Positions 1 to 15,898 of a stretch of 15,965 nt of DNA are shown here, piece by piece. Numbering within the stretch: the first letter of the stretch is position 1; the number at the start of each line of letters is the position of its first letter. Both the position numbers and the translations under genes were made by a program. Below the pieces are notes generated by a model. The model was not told the DNA's origin, did no database searches, and saw only the letters and a program-made list of their open reading frames with translations. Source of the stretch: Candidatus Helarchaeota archaeon (lineage in GTDB: Archaea; Asgardarchaeota; Lokiarchaeia; Helarchaeales; JABXJV01); contig JABXJV010000274.1 of NCBI GenBank assembly GCA_013375355.1, positions 1 through 15,965 of the forward strand. The letters run 5' to 3'.

Positions 1-1709
1 ACTTGAATACCATACATTATTACAGCCGTACCCACCGAAACAATAATGCCTCCTAATAATATACCAAATGTAAAGTCACAATTAGTAAAATTAACTACTG
101 CGGTACCTTGAACGCTCGCTTGCATTATTCTTGCACCTTGAATTAAGACGTCACCAACGGGCTCACCCTGACTACCCATACCTACTTCTAATGATAGAAT
201 CCAATTATTCCCAATTGTATCTGTTAAGCGGACTATACCCTTTGTCTCAATGTCCATTTGTAATGTAATTGTAATATTGTCCATGTATAATTGAGAAGAA
301 TCTCCTGCTGTTATAGCAAAGGCAGTTGAATTCGACAAGTATAGGATGGAATTATCAGACATTCGTATTCCTACTGGAAACATTAGGGCTACACCCCCTG
401 CGCTAACACCTACCATTGTCCCTGGAACAGTTGATGTATTAATCTGGGCTTGGGAATTGTCTTCTAATATTACAGCCGTTAAGTTCGAATTCGAAATATT
501 AAGGCTAGAAGAATCCCTGCCAATAGTGTAATTTGAAGCGCTATTATCCATTGTCACTATACCAGTACCAACAGCCATTACACTATCTAGGTATATTGGT
601 CCTCCACAATTCTGTATAATCGCCGTTGCACTAACCGCTAATACGGATACGCATATCTTCATTGCCTCTGAGATTACAGTACCAGTAAGTACTGTGTTAT
701 TTTGATAAAATGCACCTGATGGAGCGAAATTATTAATAGTAGTTGTTCCAAAACCGCATATTACACCATAGGCTAAACCTGTAACGGCAGAATTAGTTAA
801 ATTGCACCATGCTCCTTGAACTACCATAACAGCGTAAACAGTTAGACTCGTTGCTAATGCCCTTGCGTCACCTTCTAATCTAAGAACTCCAGGAGGGACT
901 CCACCTGCAATATTCAGTGTATTAATTGTTGTGTCTGTAGAGGCTCCTAAGGTAATATTAAATCCGAATATTGAATTAGTTATATTTATAACAGATGGTT
1001 TTGCTGAATCCGAACTTGCAGCTTGCATAAAACCTACAGTACTGCTATCAATTTCAGCATCTGCTCCCGCTGTTATTATAACTGCCCCTACATTTGAACC
1101 CTGTAAAATTTTTATTTTACTATCTATTGCATCTGCATCGACATCTAATACCTCATATAGTGCCGAAAAGATTGGATCCATATCGAAGATAGTGGTCACG
1201 GATGAATTCTTTACTGTAACTGTGGAATAATCACGAGCATATATGGAACCAATAGTACAATTGTCAATTGTAAGTTTAGATTTGCCGAAACAATTAATTT
1301 CTAAGTTTGGATAACTCACGTTTGTCATTTTGAGCTTTGCGTCTTCAAATAAATTGATATAGCGGAATTGACTAGTTCCAATATAAGTTGTACCGTTATC
1401 GTCTGTTGTATTCTTTACTTCAATTTTTCCTATAAGAGGAATTTCAAGATCTGGAAAAGTAGGAACCGTAGGTGCAAATATGTTTTTCATACTATAAGAT
1501 CCAGCAAATATACCAACGCCATGGTTAGTGTTATTAACTACTGACGATTCAATATTAACTGGAGGTGTTGGAATTTCTGGAAGTAGAAGGGGCAGAAGTA
1601 GAAGTCCTGAATAATCGGCTTCTTTCGGTCGTAAAAAGAAATACCAGCCAGCTACGCCACCAGCGAAACCTATTATTAAAATAAGGCCAATGGCCGCCTT
1701 TTTGCCCAT
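1..1709 (-). CDS. Membrane-anchored beta-helix-like surface protein (partial, 3' end beyond window)
   Basis: The reading frame stays open from the ATG at 1709 to the window edge, about 569 codons, with no stop. A GGTGA Shine-Dalgarno lies 7 nt before the ATG and fixes the start; another ATG at 1722 is out of frame. Residues 5-26 form a hydrophobic helix after KK, probably a signal anchor, followed by a hydrophobic, Pro-rich stretch (36-51). From about residue 95 the chain is made of short repeating strands with a rung-like pattern, such as LTIDNCTIGSI, INITNSIFGFNI, LNISNSNLTAVI and LYLSNSTAFAI. This is typical of a right-handed parallel beta-helix. N-x-S/T sequons are frequent, suggesting an N-glycosylated exterior. 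Residues 548-568 are strongly hydrophobic and could be a C-terminal membrane helix, but they also align with the earlier rung around 299-327, so they may just be another rung. No catalytic motif was seen. A structural or adhesive surface role is inferred, and the exact family is not recognised. Confidence 0.85.
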   Translation of the reverse strand, partial: MGKKAAIGLILIIGFAGGVAGWYFFLRPKEADYSGLLLLPLLLPEIPTPPVNIESSVVNNTNHGVGIFAGSYSMKNIFAPTVPTFPDLEIPLIGKIEVKNTTDDNGTTYIGTSQFRYINLFEDAKLKMTNVSYPNLEINCFGKSKLTIDNCTIGSIYARDYSTVTVKNSSVTTIFDMDPIFSALYEVLDVDADAIDSKIKILQGSNVGAVIITAGADAEIDSSTVGFMQAASSDSAKPSVINITNSIFGFNITLGASTDTTINTLNIAGGVPPGVLRLEGDARALATSLTVYAVMVVQGAWCNLTNSAVTGLAYGVICGFGTTTINNFAPSGAFYQNNTVLTGTVISEAMKICVSVLAVSATAIIQNCGGPIYLDSVMAVGTGIVTMDNSASNYTIGRDSSSLNISNSNLTAVILEDNSQAQINTSTVPGTMVGVSAGGVALMFPVGIRMSDNSILYLSNSTAFAITAGDSSQLYMDNITITLQMDIETKGIVRLTDTIGNNWILSLEVGMGSQGEPVGDVLIQGARIMQASVQGTAVVNFTNCDFTFGILLGGIIVSVGTAVIMYGIQ

Positions 1710-1770
1710 AGAATTTCACCATTTTTTTAAATTAGTTTTTGTTATATATCATAAATATAACATTTATCTA

Positions 1771-1950
1771 ATAGAAAAGTTATTTATAAGGCTGTGTAAA
1801 TTTAATAAGTTAATTCAATTTTACCATAAACCTTTTAAGTTAACTTTAGTTTATAATAAACCTATTAAGTCGATTCAATTTTAACATAAATCTTTTAAGT
1901 AAACTTGACTTTGTGTTATACTTATAAAGCCAATTCAATTCGATCTTAAA
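1771..1950. repeat. Degenerate 30-bp tandem repeat, six units, with 60-bp higher-order period
   Basis: Six consecutive 30-bp units start at 1771, 1801, 1831, 1861, 1891 and 1921. All six have AAG at unit positions 7-9, and five have T at position 10. Five end in TAAA, while the unit at 1891 ends in TATA. Units at 1801, 1861 and 1921 share ATTCAATT at positions 13-20, whereas units at 1831 and 1891 carry AACTT at positions 13-17 instead, so the real period is probably 60 bp (two related half-units). The array lies between the divergent beta-helix gene and the ceramidase operon. It has no spacers, so it is not a CRISPR. It could be a phased array of protein-binding sites, because 30 bp is close to three helical turns. 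Confidence 0.7.
1781..1789 (-). promoter_or_regulatory. Candidate TATA box of the beta-helix gene
   Basis: On the minus strand this reads TTATAAATA, close to the archaeal TATA consensus. It lies about 75 nt before the ATG at 1709, which would place transcription start near 1757 and leave a leader of roughly 45-50 nt that includes the GGTGA ribosome site. It falls inside the first, weakest unit of the 30-bp repeat array, so repeat-binding factors could affect it. The call rests on sequence resemblance only. Confidence 0.4.
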
Positions 1951-2067
1951 CATCATCCCTAAAAGGTTTTAAACATAATTTAGAAAAAGATATTTCATAT
2001 TATGACTTAAGAAAAAGTCTAAAATTCAAAATTTACAAAAAAACGAAGTTGAAAAATAAATTATTTC

Positions 2068-2150
2068 AAATAATTGATTAAAATATGTATCCTTATTACT
2101 ATTTTTTGATATATGAGTTCAAAAAGGTTCTCGAAATAATTGATCAAAAT
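2068..2150. repeat. Direct repeat, AAATAATTGATYAAAAT, two copies 66 bp apart
   Basis: The 17-bp motif occurs at 2068-2084 and again at 2134-2150 with a single mismatch (T or C at the Y). The second copy contains the palindrome TTGATCAA and sits directly before the TATA-like stretch at 2152-2165. The spacing to the operon start and the partial dyad symmetry fit a regulator-binding site, but AT-rich DNA yields such matches by chance more often than average. Confidence 0.4.
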
Positions 2151-2151
2151 T

Positions 2152-2165
2152 AATTATAATATATT
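2152..2165 (+). promoter_or_regulatory. Candidate TATA box of the ceramidase-like operon
   Basis: The stretch AATTATAATATATT resembles an archaeal TATA element and lies about 70-80 nt before the ATG at 2233. Initiation would then fall near 2185. The region is so AT-rich that other placements are possible. Confidence 0.3.
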
Positions 2166-2232
2166 TTTAATGATAAAATTATGATTTTACATATTAAGTT
2201 CTAAATGTTTAAGATTGTGGGAAATTCAAAAA

Positions 2233-3558
2233 ATGTCTAATATTGGCTTCTCTGAGGTAAAAATTACTCCAAAAGCAAAAAGTGTCCCAATGGGAGGATA
2301 TGCACCCACAAGATACTCTACAGGAGTCCATGACGAGTTATTTGCAAGAGCAATGTATTTTTCAGATGGAAAAGAAGAAACCATAATAATTTCTGTTGAA
2401 GTTGTTTGTATTTACTATAGGTTCATTCAAAGGATGAGGAAAAAAATCTCTGAAAAAACTGGTGTTAGGCCTGAAAATATTTTAATTTCCTCTCATCATA
2501 ACCATAGTGGTCCAGACACTTTAGGACTTTTTGACATTAAAGGTTTTTTCACTCCCACATTTAACTTAAAAATGATGACTCAAATTGAATTAAAAATTGT
2601 AAAATCGGCAGTTTTGGCCAAAAAGAATGCAAAACCCGGTAAAATTGGTCTAGAAAAAAGGATTTTTGAAAAAAGAGTTATGTTAAACAGAAGGGATCCA
2701 CAGAAAGATACGAAATATGATTTAAGCGTTTTAAGAGTCAACTCTGATGATGGGGAAATGCGAGGATTACTAACTAATTACGCTTGTCACGTAACTACTC
2801 TACCAAGGGATAATACACTACTAACAGGTGAATTTCCAGGATATTTAGTTCGCAGAATAAAGGACTTAACAAAGAATAAAGTCTTTTCAATGTATACTAA
2901 CGGTCCTTGTGGTGATCTTAATCCAAATTTGTATCCTGAAAATGAACCTTTTCATTTGATAACAAAAGAAAGACTTAGCAAGTCAAGCTATGGTGAGTTT
3001 AATCGATTAGGGAATTATAAAACTACTATTAGGATTGGTTACTCATTGGGAGAAAGTGCTTTAGAAATCGCAAAAACTATAAACTGTTCCGAAATAAAAG
3101 ATATTAAGGTTGTCTCAAAAATTATTAATATCCCACTTAAAGATATGATGGAGGATAATTCAAGGAAATCTATAATGAGACACATCTCTTTCATATTTAA
3201 AAAACTATTAATTACAACCCTTCTGAATTACAATCGTTCAAATATGTCATATGTCAGTTTCGTTAAGAAAAGGGGGAATTGGTATTTTCAAACTGAATTA
3301 CAAGCCATTAAGATAAATGATATTTTAATTTTAAGTGTTCCTGGAGAATTATTTGTCGATTTAGGTAAAAAAGTAATATCCAAATCACCGATTAAAAAGA
3401 CCTTTATTATTGAACTAGGTAATGATTGGATTGGATATCTATATCCACCAGAAGAATATTTTAGAGGAGGTTATGAGACTGGAATCGTATCATTTTCTCC
3501 CGTTGCAGGAATTTATGTTTATAATAAAATGCTAAATCTTTTAAACAACTTTAAGTAA
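2233..3558 (+). CDS. Neutral/alkaline ceramidase-like hydrolase
   Basis: The protein has 441 residues from the ATG at 2233. An in-frame TTG at 2215 would add six residues, but the family's typical opening (SNIGFSEVKITP) begins right after the ATG. It matches the catalytic domain of neutral/alkaline non-lysosomal ceramidases, zinc amidases that release a fatty acid from sphingoid N-acyl amides. Counting from the ATG, SSHHNHSGPD (86-95) is the zinc-binding His motif. ACHVTT (184-189) supplies a second candidate zinc His. TNGPCGDLNP (222-231) occupies the place of the family's catalytic-Ser segment. PGE (370-372) and NDWIGYLYPPEEY (397-409) match the conserved Glu and Tyr region. It is shorter than typical ~650-700-residue ceramidases and lacks the C-terminal Ig-like domain and a signal peptide, so it is likely cytoplasmic. 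The catalytic Ser is not obvious: the segment reads NGPCGD where family members have Ser, so the nucleophile and substrate are uncertain. It heads a three-gene operon. Confidence 0.85.
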   Translation: MSNIGFSEVKITPKAKSVPMGGYAPTRYSTGVHDELFARAMYFSDGKEETIIISVEVVCIYYRFIQRMRKKISEKTGVRPENILISSHHNHSGPDTLGLFDIKGFFTPTFNLKMMTQIELKIVKSAVLAKKNAKPGKIGLEKRIFEKRVMLNRRDPQKDTKYDLSVLRVNSDDGEMRGLLTNYACHVTTLPRDNTLLTGEFPGYLVRRIKDLTKNKVFSMYTNGPCGDLNPNLYPENEPFHLITKERLSKSSYGEFNRLGNYKTTIRIGYSLGESALEIAKTINCSEIKDIKVVSKIINIPLKDMMEDNSRKSIMRHISFIFKKLLITTLLNYNRSNMSYVSFVKKRGNWYFQTELQAIKINDILILSVPGELFVDLGKKVISKSPIKKTFIIELGNDWIGYLYPPEEYFRGGYETGIVSFSPVAGIYVYNKMLNLLNNFK

Positions 3559-3577: not shown

Positions 3578-4372
3578 ATGCCAAAAATTTTGAATGAACT
3601 TCTAAAATTGATTAGAGATAATTACGATAGGAGTCCCCCACCTAAAGTTAAACAGGTAATTTTAGGTTTAATCTACTCATGTGTTAGATTAATTAATGAT
3701 CAAATAGGTCTTAGCCATTCTTTGGTTAATTTCTACTCAAAAGATTGTTTTTTAACTAATAAATGGGGTGATTTATCATCTTATACTTTACCAAAATTAG
3801 TAGATTTTTCCGAATCAGATATAATAATAGATAGAGTATTAGGAATTTCTGCCATTAATGCCTATTCACAACATATTTTTGAAGAAAATTCTTTTGGATT
3901 TAACTTTGAAAATGATGTCCTTGATAAATTACAAATAAAAAAATCCGATAAAGTGGGAATGGTAGGACTATTTAGACCTATGGTCCCAAAAATTGTTACT
4001 AAAGTGAAAAGCTTAATAATTGTTGAAAAAGATCCAGAAAAATTGGGAAAATTTCAAGGTGTAGATATAACTAGTGATTCCTCTGTATTGGAGAATGTGG
4101 ATGTTGCGATCATAACTGGTACTACCCTTATTAATAATACAATTGACGGTATACTCAAGTTGGTTGATGAGGCAAGAACAGCAATGATTGGACCTACAAT
4201 GGGAATGCTTCCAGACCCTCTATTTAAAGCTGGAGTTGATATTGTTGGTGGGATGAAATTTTTTGATGTAGACAAGGTAATAAAGACAATAACTGAAGGA
4301 CAAGGGACCAAACGATTTAAAAAATTTGCTAAGAAATACATAATAGAAGAAAAAAACTATACAGGATTTTAA
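3578..4372 (+). CDS. DUF4213/DUF364 protein, putative heavy-metal chelation
   Basis: This 264-residue protein fits the two-part family of DUF4213 (enolase-N-terminal-like) followed by DUF364 (Rossmann-like). The N-terminal part contains VILGLIYSCVRL (27-38) and GLSHS (44-48). The C-terminal part has the family hallmarks VGLFRPMVPKI (129-139), ITGTTLINNT (179-188) and GPTMGMLPDPLF (205-216), then a GGMKFFD segment and a basic tail. The length is normal for the family. Members are often annotated as heavy-metal chelation proteins from structural resemblance, and their reaction is not established. The ATG at 3578 follows the upstream stop by 19 nt, with GGAAGGA as a plausible ribosome site. The next gene starts 3 nt after its stop, so co-translation is likely. 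No signal peptide is present. Confidence 0.85.
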   Translation: MPKILNELLKLIRDNYDRSPPPKVKQVILGLIYSCVRLINDQIGLSHSLVNFYSKDCFLTNKWGDLSSYTLPKLVDFSESDIIIDRVLGISAINAYSQHIFEENSFGFNFENDVLDKLQIKKSDKVGMVGLFRPMVPKIVTKVKSLIIVEKDPEKLGKFQGVDITSDSSVLENVDVAIITGTTLINNTIDGILKLVDEARTAMIGPTMGMLPDPLFKAGVDIVGGMKFFDVDKVIKTITEGQGTKRFKKFAKKYIIEEKNYTGF

Positions 4373-4375
4373 AAT

Positions 4376-5296
4376 ATGAACAATCCAAGAAAACATCTAA
4401 TTAGTTTAACGCATATAGAAGATGTTGATGGAATTGGCGCACAGGCAATATTATTAAGAAAATTCCCTAATATTATCTGTTTCCAAACATTTTATAGTGA
4501 ATTTAATGAATTTATTAAAAAGATCTTTGATTTAAATCCAGATATTTTATATATAACAGACATTGGATTTAATGAATCATATAGAGAAGTTTATGAAATC
4601 TTGGGAAAAATGAAAAACGTATGTTGGATTGACCATCACTTAATATCGGAACCTGATAAAGCAGAACTAAAGAAATATATTAAAAATTTTATTCATGCAA
4701 CTGATAAAACTGTTGCTGCCGAATTGACACAACAAATCTTTCTTCCTGATGATGAAATTTCCAAGAAAATTGCAAAACTTGGATATTTTAGGGACAACAC
4801 AATTGAGAATTTTGAATCTGATCGTTTGCAGGCAATAATAGAAATAAATCAAAATAATCGGAAAAATATTCAGAAAATTGTAGAATTGCTTTCTAAGGGG
4901 GAGTTTAAGAATAAGTGGATTCAAGAACAATATAATATTTACTTAAAAGAAGAAAAAATTGAATATAAAAAGCTCGAAGATAGAGCAAGAGAATTTCAAA
5001 TAAAAAGAGTTAAAGTTGTAATTTCTTTTTCACCATTTTTTGCTACAGGCAAGCAGACTCGTTATTTGCTAAAAAATTTCAACGCGGATATTGTATTTGG
5101 TGTCAACCCTCGTTTTCAGTTAGTAAGTATAAAAAGCCACGATATAAATGTTAAAAAAATAGCAGAGGAATTTGGTGGTGGGGGCCATTTTGATAGATCG
5201 GGGTTTTCTTATGCCAATCTATTAGATGAAAATGATAAATTATCATCAGAATTCATTGAAAAGGTTCTAAAAGCAGTAAGAGAAAATTTAGATTAA
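4376..5296 (+). CDS. DHH/DHHA1-family phosphoesterase
   Basis: This 306-residue protein is of the NrnA/RecJ-like DHH superfamily, manganese-dependent phosphoesterases that cleave short oligonucleotides, cyclic dinucleotides or related phosphodiesters. Motif I is H-I-E-D-V-D-G (13-19). Motif II is the Asp of TDIGF (61-65), motif III is DHH (86-88), and RDNT (139-142) is a candidate for motif IV. The C-terminal DHHA1 domain carries GGGGHFDRSG (267-276), the glycine-rich substrate-binding loop. All the metal-binding positions expected for activity appear intact. There is no membrane segment, CBS, PAS or S1 domain, so it is a stand-alone cytoplasmic enzyme of typical NrnA length. The ATG lies 3 nt after the previous stop, with AGGAT about 9 nt before it. 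The substrate cannot be assigned from sequence; nanoRNase and pAp phosphatase-like activities are both possible. Confidence 0.87.
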   Translation: MNNPRKHLISLTHIEDVDGIGAQAILLRKFPNIICFQTFYSEFNEFIKKIFDLNPDILYITDIGFNESYREVYEILGKMKNVCWIDHHLISEPDKAELKKYIKNFIHATDKTVAAELTQQIFLPDDEISKKIAKLGYFRDNTIENFESDRLQAIIEINQNNRKNIQKIVELLSKGEFKNKWIQEQYNIYLKEEKIEYKKLEDRAREFQIKRVKVVISFSPFFATGKQTRYLLKNFNADIVFGVNPRFQLVSIKSHDINVKKIAEEFGGGGHFDRSGFSYANLLDENDKLSSEFIEKVLKAVRENLD

Positions 5297-5345
5297 ATTT
5301 AATACTTATCGATTGTTCGAAAGGTTGATATTTTTTGCTTTTTTA
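5297..5345 (+). terminator. Candidate T-tract terminator of the operon, inside the convergent gene
   Basis: Two T6 runs (5331-5336 and 5339-5344) lie 35-50 nt downstream of the DHH stop. Archaeal transcription commonly ends at such T-tracts without a strong hairpin. They fall within the 3' end of the convergent giant gene, because only 9 nt separate the two stop codons. The placement is inferred. Confidence 0.35.
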
Positions 5346-8300
5346 CCATATTCAATCATTTTTGGTAAGTTTCCTAATCGTCCATAAGAGATACTAATTC
5401 TATACACAGCATCTTTGAATTGAGGATATTTTGCAATAACTTTTTTATAAAAATCTATTGCTTTTTTGTAACTTTGTAAATGAAAGAATAAATTTCCCAT
5501 CTTATACCATTTTTTAACGTCCTCATCTAGCATTTCTTCAGTAAAAATAGGCTTCTGTTCAAATTTAAGAGTGATATTTTTCTCATTATTTGAAATTTTG
5601 TTATTTAATGAATTCAAAATTTCTATTATTTTTTCATCTTGTGGATCAATTTTATTAGCATTTGTGAAAGATTGGAAAGATTTATTATAATTTTTCAAGT
5701 TTAAATAAGCAACACCAAGGTTATACCATCCTCTTTTATCCAAGGGATCGATTTTAACAGCTTTTTTGCAACAATCAATCACTTTTTGATGATCCCCTAA
5801 TTTACCATAGCATTTAGCAATTTTACTCCATGTTTCTTTGTCATATAAGTCAATATCTAGAACTTTTTTATAAATTCCAATTGCTTTTTCGTAATCTTTA
5901 TAGTAATAAGAAAATAATCCCAAAATATTCCAGACATTTTTTAATTTGGGATCAATTTCAACTACTTTTTCATAACATTTAATTGCTCTGTGGTAATTAC
6001 CTGATGCTAAATAAGTGGCAGCCAAAAAATTCCAAGCATTTTTTAACTTAGGATCGATTACAATTGCCTTTAAATTACAATCAATTACTTTTTGAAGATT
6101 TCCTGTTTTTGAATAACATTTTCCTAATTCAAACCAAGCTTCTTTAAATTCAGGATCTATTTTAATAGCCTTTGTAAAATAATTAATGGCTTTATTATAA
6201 TTTTTCAATAATAAAAACTCAAAACCCTTGACATAACAATTTTTAGCTGTAGATTTTCTTTTTTCTGGCTCATCTAAAGTTAATAAAATAGATTTCTGTG
6301 TGATTTGCTCGCTTTTAGGAGTCAAGACTTGCTTTATTTGCGGTTTTTTACTTTTCATTAAATTCTCATTTTTTATAAGATTTATTTTTGATAAATCTGA
6401 TTTAGGATAAGATTTTTCATTTGATTGATCAATTTCAATAACTTTTTTATAGCATTCCACCATTTTTTGATAGTTTTTTAACCTTCCATAAGTTATTCCC
6501 ATTTTACTCCAAGCTTCTCTAGAGTTTGGGTTAATTTCGATTTCTTTTTTGAAATATTGCAAAGCATACTCATATTCACCTTCATCAAAGACTCTTAAAC
6601 CCATAATATACCAGTTTTCCCTTTTTTGTTCAGGAGGAGGAGTAACAAGTACTTTAGGAGGAGGAGTGATAATCACATTCCCTCCTTCTGCAGATTTTAA
6701 TGCAGTTCTTAATTGATTTAATATAAATTTGGTCTCTCTATCAAATGGATTAAGATTAGCCGCTTTCTCATAATAATCAATAGCTCTCTGATAATTTTTT
6801 GATTCCCTGAAGACTTCTGCCATTCTTTTAAAAATATTGGCCTTTTCAATATTTTTTACTTCTTTCTTTCTCTGAGCAAATGTATAAGTGGCTTTAGAAC
6901 TTTTTACCCTTCCAATAAATTTAGGATCCCAAGTTCTTTTTGATTGTCTTGAAATTGAAGGTTCTTCTGTAACATTATTCCGACTATAAATTCTACCCAA
7001 AATTATCCCTCCAATAAGAATAGAAAATACTATTATTAATAAGACCACTATTGGACCAATATTGAAATTAAAATCCGATATGAGGGATAAAGCGGCCAAT
7101 ATTTTTGGATCAAAAATGGGTTGCTCATCAGGTGGATCTTCTGGGGGAGTACCTGTTCCATATTCAAAATATATCGAGAAATCATTAGTCGAAGTAGTTA
7201 GACCAGTATAGCTATTATAATAATATGTATCATACCCGTAATTTAATCCACACGTATAACTTGATGCGTAATCTAGATAATCGTAACTAAATATTATATC
7301 TCCTGTTTCATATAAAATAATTTCAAATGATCCAACCATAGATCCCCCAAAAGAATAGATATCTTTCCATTCTATAACAAATCGATTTGGAGATGACAAA
7401 GTTCTATAATATATATTACAAGGATTAGCAGCTCTTAAATCATCCCAATATGGGGCGATCATATTATAATAAGAACTAGTAGGAAATGGAACGTTAATAA
7501 ACGAAGTATAACCCACAAAACTAGCAAAACCGTTTGTACAAACCCAAATACTATTAAATTCCCCATCATAAAAGGGAAAAGTAAAAGGCAGACTTATTAA
7601 TTGGGAAGAATCGTCCATTCCATCCAAATTACAGCGAGTGCCAACTGTAGCATCTATCCAAGTATAACTATAACCGGGAATCATTCGATAATTATTTAAT
7701 ATATCTAATTCTTCTACATTTGGTCCACTATAGGGTCCATCATTTGCTGAAAAAATGCCATCATAGCAATTAAAAGAAAATGTATGAACTCCTGGGTTTA
7801 AGTTCGTTTGATATATAAAATTACATCCATCCATATAATTGGAGTCTAGCGGATTTTGTTTGGACATCATGTATGGTATTCCATCAATTATTATATTGAT
7901 GGATGTAGGAGGATTATTATCTTGATCCGTATAAATTACATTATAAGTAAATAACGTAAATTGATTACCATTATTTGGATCAACACTTCCAGAACTTATA
8001 TTTGGTGCAAAAATATTTTGTTGAATAGTAAAGGTAAAATATGAACACCATTCTCCATTAAATAGACCATAAGTAGGACAAACTCGCCAATAATATTGAC
8101 CTGGGGAATAATTTACTAAAAGGGAAATATTTGAAATACTTGGTGTCTCTGTAATTTTTTCGATTTCATGAGTAATATTGGAAAAATCAGAAAAATTTGA
8201 AATTTGTAAAGTATAATTCACTGGACCAAAATATGGTTCTAAACTAGTCCATCGAAAATCAATTAAACCACTAAATAGGGTACTGCCATTAGAGGGACTT

Positions 8301-15898: not shown

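Follow-up and report, generated by a model that had tools for sequence, protein, structure and literature searches.

Furin, Kex2 and site-1-protease of eukaryotes are type I membrane subtilases with a cytosolic tail, as the protein described here is predicted to be; their tails are short and are not known to carry TPR or HEAT repeats, and we consider the likeness at the level of the S8 domain alone. The S8 enzymes Tk-SP and pro-Tk-subtilisin of Thermococcus kodakarensis (PDB 3afg, 9ues, 2e1p) share with it a pro-domain and S8 core, but are small secreted enzymes not known to have a giant array, transmembrane (TM) helix or cytosolic tail. S8A is named among the extracellular peptidases of known protein degraders, and extracellular peptidases are common in archaeal MAGs, according to PMC9123169. 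Asgard archaea encode giant proteins of >3000 aa, some tied to aloposon elements (PMC8813620); these resemble our protein in size and lineage, and the main text of that paper mentions neither subtilases nor TPR. Asgard longin/roadblock-GTPase proteins are also already in print (PMC10933270). In literature covered by titles and abstract openings, with subscription papers and most preprints outside, we found no paper that treats S8-TM-TPR or S8-FtsX proteins of Asgard archaea, nor one on an S8-TM-adaptor class.

Architecture of the giant gene

The window, i.e. the whole stretch of DNA analysed here, is a 15965-bp contig in full (JABXJV010000274.1, from a Candidatus Helarchaeota archaeon). An earlier note on this DNA, made from the letters alone, had claimed that one frame joins a signal peptide, an S8 protease, spacer modules, one TM helix and TPRs, and the ORF list, Pfam and hydropathy agree with it: the protein has 3530 aa in a single unbroken frame of 3530 codons. 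Its order is signal peptide, I9-like pro-domain (I9 being the name we assume for it), S8, Ig-like repeats with other modules, NIDO-like domain, TM and TPR tail (Table 1). About 2230 residues lie between the end of S8 (about residue 715) and the TM, and they hold nine Ig-like repeats of ~95 aa. A Pfam scan of the protein gave Peptidase_S8 at E 6.4e–38 and TPR_1 at E 6.6e–60. The post-TM tail (562 aa, basic) contains tandem 34-aa repeats over the Pfam cut-off, with eight TPR_1 stretches significant singly and about 11 TPRs recognizable by eye. Among the best 25 of the 27 Pfam families matched, all matches in the tail region were of TPR type, with no catalytic output domain such as would mark a receptor kinase or two-component protein. 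The same families included no P domain, the module that follows S8 in proprotein convertases (furin/Kex2); residues 716–815 carry no assignment.

Table 1. Features of the window, with positions on the contig
Feature	Residues	Position	Strand	Basis or remark
S8-TM-TPR giant gene, whole	1–3530	5306..15898	-	3530 aa; ORF, Pfam, hydropathy
Signal peptide	about 1–29	15812..15898	-	KD peak at 8–26 = 2.34; N-terminus kept in L056
I9-like pro-domain	145–222	15233..15466	-	Model strand/helix order, pLDDT about 90; best PDB match ProN-Tk-SP
S8 catalytic domain	223–715	13754..15232	-	D257, H299, N532, S623; Pfam, alignments, PDB and fold matches
Beta-rich insert in S8	321–441	14576..14938	-	Between catalytic His and oxyanion Asn; model strands mostly pLDDT 75–95
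Ectodomain array	824–2728	7715..13429	-	Nine Ig-like repeats and other modules
Ig-like repeats 1–5	824–920, 928–1020, 1270–1364, 1374–1469, 1686–1776	within 7715..13429	-	
Ig-like repeats 6–9	1788–1877, 2161–2253, 2264–2355, 2634–2728	within 7715..13429	-	
Array extra, lamin-tail PF00932		within 7715..13429	-	Precomputed Pfam list
Array extra, MAM-like	1944–2046	within 7715..13429	-	Under cut-off
NIDO-like domain	2735–2912	7163..7696	-	73% identity to L056, where Pfam names NIDO
Transmembrane helix	2950–2968	6995..7051	-	KD 3.16; basic residues after
Cytosolic TPR scaffold	3018–3530	5309..6847	-	TPR_1 E 6.6e–60; aligns with L056 and L008 tails
Neighbour, DHH-domain protein		4376..5296	+	Convergent; syntenic at L056, 88.9% identity
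Neighbour, DUF4213-DUF364		3578..4372	+	Syntenic at L056
Neighbour, neutral/alkaline ceramidase N-terminal-like		2215..3558	+	Syntenic at L056, 88.9% identity; not thought to be a system member
Neighbour, repetitive protein with N-terminal hydrophobic stretch		3..1709	-	No Pfam match; 59% to L056 counterpart

The database gene call (P0001, 3483 aa) begins at M48 and therefore lacks the signal peptide (window 15758–15898). We favour M1 as the probable true start because L056, an orthologue in Helarchaeota LW55_61, retains a homologous N-terminus (42% over residues 1–144), which we count as supporting evidence.

The earlier note had placed the S8 triad correctly (D257, H299 and S623), and these residues, together with the oxyanion Asn, show no variation across alignments of 11 and 17 sequences, as in family S8. 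The best PDB sequence match was 3afg (E 2.2e–42), the best fold match of the S8 model was of Tk-SP type (E 7.1e–19, 568 columns), and the top Foldseek matches were pro-subtilases, i.e. a subtilisin fold with pro-domain, in a model of moderate quality (mean pLDDT 67; 172 of 575 residues <50). From its sequence, we infer that the domain is proteolytically active.

Topology

Apart from the signal-peptide-like segment, the hydropathy profile has a single strong TM peak away from the termini, with lesser peaks (1.5–1.6) at residues 1014–1036 and 1192–1216, inside the array. Lys+Arg make up 2.5% of the array (816–2945) vs. 18.7% of the tail. Sequons number 57 in the array vs. 35.6 ± 5.0 in shuffled sequences (a count reached by 0 of 1000), and those of the tail are at chance (4 vs. 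4.0 expected). Over the whole ectodomain (31–2945) the excess is weaker (58 vs. 46.2 ± 6.2, a level that 34 of 1000 shuffles attain), since residues 31–815 hold only one sequon. This pro-S8 part is itself depleted (1 vs. 10.4), and the array (816–2945) enriched.

By hydropathy and charge, the protein is of type I single-pass form (signal peptide, one TM, basic side inside). Composition and hydropathy strongly indicate that the array is outside and the TPRs inside, in agreement with the topology that the earlier note had proposed, of a protease outside joined to TPRs inside; charge and sequons make the reverse, with TPRs outside, very unlikely.

A class of S8 ectodomains with varied cytosolic tails

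Of the 28 proteins matched in the first protein search, one being the window's own, seven have a lineage in the source name: Asgard in five cases (Helarchaeota, Sigynarchaeota twice, Hodarchaeota and Promethearchaeota), and Nitrospirota and Thermoplasmata in one case each. When genome contigs were scanned, 18 loci emerged, 16 of them with Asgard titles and two with Bathyarchaeota titles. We counted as S8 homologues the 89 proteins with S8 scores >250 bits, window included, and sorted them by hydropathy into 17 with long tails (≥60 aa after the TM), 54 with shorter ones and 18 with no TM found, the last group including truncated proteins. The script tally had been 16 long, 55 short and 18 none; P0003 was reassigned manually to the long class because the script mistook a hydrophobic HEAT helix for the TM. 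The long tails were HEAT (8, counting P0077, whose HEAT_2 score of 27.6 bits is just below the cut-off of 27.7), zinc ribbon (5; P0016 and P0089 by precomputed Pfam, and P0004, P0086 and P0133 by Cys pattern), TPR (2) and unclassified (2). Neither Pfam scans nor precomputed lists showed an enzyme domain in these 17 tails, two of them being the unclassified ones.

The eight HEAT-tailed proteins (P0003, P0006, P0011, P0015, P0076, P0077, P0079 and P0094), mostly with zinc ribbons as well, follow the same signal-pro-S8-array-TM plan as the window protein, with S8 domains 61–75% identical to its own (measured for P0003, P0006, P0011 and P0015), but their cytosolic tail is HEAT, not TPR. By eye, the tails of P0007, P0090 and L191 have a common cytosolic domain of ~130 aa, without a Pfam match in P0090; titles or names place L191 and P0007 in Sigynarchaeota. 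The P0020 tail has, also by eye, a longin/roadblock-like segment and then a zinc-ribbon-like stretch.

S8 matches at E ≤ 1e–40 occurred in 84 of 227 Asgard genomes (best ≤6 candidates per genome), and the 99 loci were reduced to 93 distinct places by removing five duplicates and one Bathyarchaeota locus. A TM followed by a tail of ≥100 aa was present at 42 of these places, several of the 93 ending at contig ends where tails may be missed; 40 tails were zinc-ribbon-like (in this census, ≥3 CxxC motifs, not Pfam), one was TPR (L008) and one unclassified (L191). The count excludes L046/L125, a single contig-cut place whose presumed TM is inside the ectodomain.

The window protein is therefore not the isolated oddity that it might have been taken for, being the TPR variant of an Asgard S8 ectodomain class with varied cytosolic tails. 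The TPR variant is nonetheless unusual, as had been claimed: it accounts for 2 of the 89 S8 homologues (window counted) and 1 of the 93 Asgard S8 places, only L008 having been found besides the window protein among the relatives searched. When the TM-TPR tail was searched against the 227 Asgard genomes, matches at E ≤ 1e–25 appeared in 31 (best ≤5 candidates per genome); those outside genome G001 are TPR matches of 25–42% identity, counted irrespective of the ectodomain status of their frames. In a protein search with the tail (47 proteins), the window protein was the only one with S8 among the precomputed Pfam families listed. P0164, a candidate TPR-tailed relative, was rejected as having no ectodomain. 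A widespread S8-TM-TPR architecture was thus not supported by the S8 homologue tails, the Asgard genome search or the tail protein search.

The short basic end after the TM in 54 of the 89 relatives, like the wide occurrence of extracellular peptidases in archaeal MAGs (PMC9123169), would suit an ordinary tethered digestive protease that its TPR tail anchors or stabilises only incidentally. We hold this improbable for our protein, with its tail under constraint (dN/dS 0.29, see below) and retained in a protease-less orthologue, and with adaptor-type tails recurring in relatives.

Separable and exchangeable halves

The orthologue L056 (L056:8301–11276, 991 aa) lies on a 1.48-Mb contig of LW55_61, with the same gene order as in the window: DHH protein, DUF364, ceramidase-like and repetitive protein. 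Loss of the DUF364 gene at L056 was considered and rejected, the frame being open there. The orthologue retains window residues 1–220 (51%) and 2734–3520 (59%), i.e. the N-terminus, I9-like pro-domain (68% identical), NIDO, TM and TPR tail, whereas S8 and the array (~2510 aa) are missing without a frame shift. Deletion in LW55_61 appears more likely than insertion in the window because the pro-domain goes with S8 in aligned relatives. The TM-TPR tail, NIDO and N-terminus are constrained (dN/dS vs. L056 of 0.29, 0.29 and 0.35) yet evolve faster than two neighbour genes (0.084 and 0.095), the values of the giant gene being about three times theirs. Since the LW55_61 orthologue has no protease, the protease and TPR halves can be uncoupled. 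The pro-domain left without a protease in L056 is possibly a tethered inhibitor. Upstream of this orthologue and on the same strand, L056:6573–7319 encodes a protein with a C-terminal RING-like cysteine pattern, as seen by eye.

The second S8-TM-TPR protein, L008 (the same protein as P0075), lies about 38 kb from L056 on the same contig; it has 1658 aa, with S8, Ig-like repeats, a TM at 1222–1240 and a 418-aa TPR tail. A contig of only 15965 bp, compared with genomes that are also metagenome assemblies, raises the question of whether the window architecture arose by misassembly or by the chance joining of two genes, or whether its TPRs lie outside. Misassembly is strongly disfavoured because this second copy sits on a 1.48-Mb contig, the TM-TPR part is conserved in the syntenic L056, and neither GC nor GC3 breaks at the TM of the window gene; the charge and sequon asymmetry stands against inversion. 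We therefore regard this group of explanations as very improbable, and a misassembled join, which the earlier note had raised as a way of being wrong, as very unlikely.

The window protein and HEAT-tailed P0003 have an ectodomain in common. The two are 68% identical over window residues 71–1893 and 53% over 2023–2623, about 130 window residues between these blocks having no P0003 counterpart, and homology stops at P0003 residue 2419, 11 residues before its TM at 2430. Beyond that point the window protein has a further Ig repeat, NIDO, TM and TPR, the last three matching L056. One ectodomain type thus carries different tails. An S8 tree of 82 of the 89 proteins (S8 >400 bits, ≥400 residues; a quick tree with SH-aLRT only, 20 of 79 forks open) paired the window with P0003 (support 86, not starred) and placed L008 in a group with P0076 and P0079, both HEAT-tailed (97, starred). 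On this tree the window and L008, the two rows with TPR tails, do not form a sister pair, and the TPR label requires two changes, both forced by starred branches. The five tail states, without the 18 no-TM rows, took 10 changes (minimum 4), and long vs. short took 7; with the no-TM rows as a sixth group, the labels took 25 changes vs. a shuffled mean of 31.4, i.e. they are more clustered than shuffled.

The window and L008 tails align along their full length (35%). The nearest TPR to the L008 tail in LW55_61 is L056 (1e–44; next 1.7e–39), and from the window tail, L008 (3.9e–27) ranks under three same-genome TPR matches in shorter frames (1.6e–44 to 3.1e–41). Transfer of a tail from one S8 lineage to another would account for this, as would two separate gains of TPRs. 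These patterns suggest that outside and inside halves may have been exchanged during evolution.

Neighbouring genes and shared repeats

The earlier note had stated that no partner is visible; this is true of the window, but relatives show adjoining genes, namely a longin-fold protein beside L008 and permeases beside a remote zinc-ribbon-tailed S8 group. The next gene after L008 (L008:15185–16729, same strand, 625 bp on) encodes a membrane protein whose cytosolic domain, modelled from 20 sequences (pLDDT 73), matched structures of AP-complex sigma, LAMTOR, Rag and Asgard roadblock proteins (best E 6.8e–4, the sole one at E ≤ 0.001; most listed query TM-scores 0.4–0.6). We assign it a longin/roadblock fold. 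Relatives of this domain occur in 67 of the 227 Asgard genomes; among seven loci inspected in G001, a strong TM lies hundreds of residues upstream at four and is lacking at three. The Ig repeats are also shared: in LW55_61, L093:5348–9412 is a receptor histidine kinase (Ig repeats, SBP, TM 963–981, HisKA, HATPase_c) whose Ig repeats are 52% identical to a window pair, and the repeats recur in a giant of 3357 aa that has CxxC motifs, unnamed by Pfam, at the end of its tail.

Repeats fronting a histidine kinase and a longin/roadblock neighbour of L008 would both fit a true signalling receptor, in which ligand binding or cleavage at the ectodomain alters the TPR tail and its partner, passing a signal from outside to inside. 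TPRs carry no output activity, however, no signalling partner was recognised adjoining the window gene or L056, and the longin-fold neighbour occurs at one locus only, a one-query BLAST finding the domain in none of 20 zinc-tail loci; we think this reading rather unlikely.

Those 20 loci, the ones on longer contigs among the 40 places of the remote zinc-ribbon-tailed group (L192–L211, e.g. L201:59–14265; S8 27–32% identical), show a same-strand block of permease, ~1300-aa secreted protein, S8 and permease, with both permeases at 19 of 20 (L200, at a contig end, has one) and a small extra ORF inside the block at two. Three permeases scanned, from two loci, were all FtsX (E 1.4e–26 to 2.2e–31). 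FtsEX activates cell-wall hydrolases, and by analogy FtsX/MacB-type permeases might activate or feed the S8 protein in an energised surface machine, the tail touching the ATPase side. For the window protein this seems improbable: the permease-flanked group is distant in S8 and has a different tail, and FtsX was found neither among the window's neighbours (Pfam) nor, by eye, around L056 and L008.

Discussion

Our leading explanation, to which we give about an even chance, is that the window protein is a surface protease/adhesin whose exchangeable tail docks it to cytosolic partners. The architecture, the conservation of the catalytic residues and the diversity of tails are observed; the function proposed is as follows. 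The protein, a type I single-pass surface protein, would come from a Helarchaeota-like Asgard archaeon, as synteny with LW55_61 suggests; it would be exported as a subtilase zymogen with an I9-type pro-domain and mature outside the membrane, probably by autoprocessing as in Tk-SP. The Ig/LTD/NIDO array would space the protease off the membrane and may bind surface or environmental ligands, and the basic cytosolic tail would serve as a non-catalytic TPR docking platform recruiting at least one cytosolic protein. Docking may position, cluster or traffic the protease, or report its occupancy inside. The protein is a member of an Asgard class that combines related S8-array ectodomains with exchangeable adaptor tails (zinc ribbons, HEAT, TPR). 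We prefer a docked protease/adhesin to a dedicated signal receptor because Pfam recognised no enzyme domain in the 17 long S8 tails, two of them unclassified, and because protease and tail have proved separable over evolution. Against docking stand the 54 of 89 S8 relatives without a cytosolic tail, the LW55_61 orthologue without a protease, and the window gene having no adjoining partner gene.

A broader picture, which we offer as speculative and on balance unlikely, is a combinatorial Asgard surface system in which S8-Ig ectodomains with swappable outputs (TPR, HEAT, zinc ribbon; for the Ig repeats, also histidine kinase) would be coupled to longin/roadblock-GTPase machinery or FtsX permeases. 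In such a system, variants that have lost the protease, as in LW55_61, would use their retained I9-like pro-domain, in tethered form, to inhibit or help fold the S8 receptor that remains.

For the question of how archaea related to eukaryotes connect their surface with the cell interior, a membrane subtilase family with swappable alpha-solenoid and zinc-ribbon tails provides concrete baits for cytosolic partners, and L056, an orthologue naturally without protease, allows the role of each half to be told apart.
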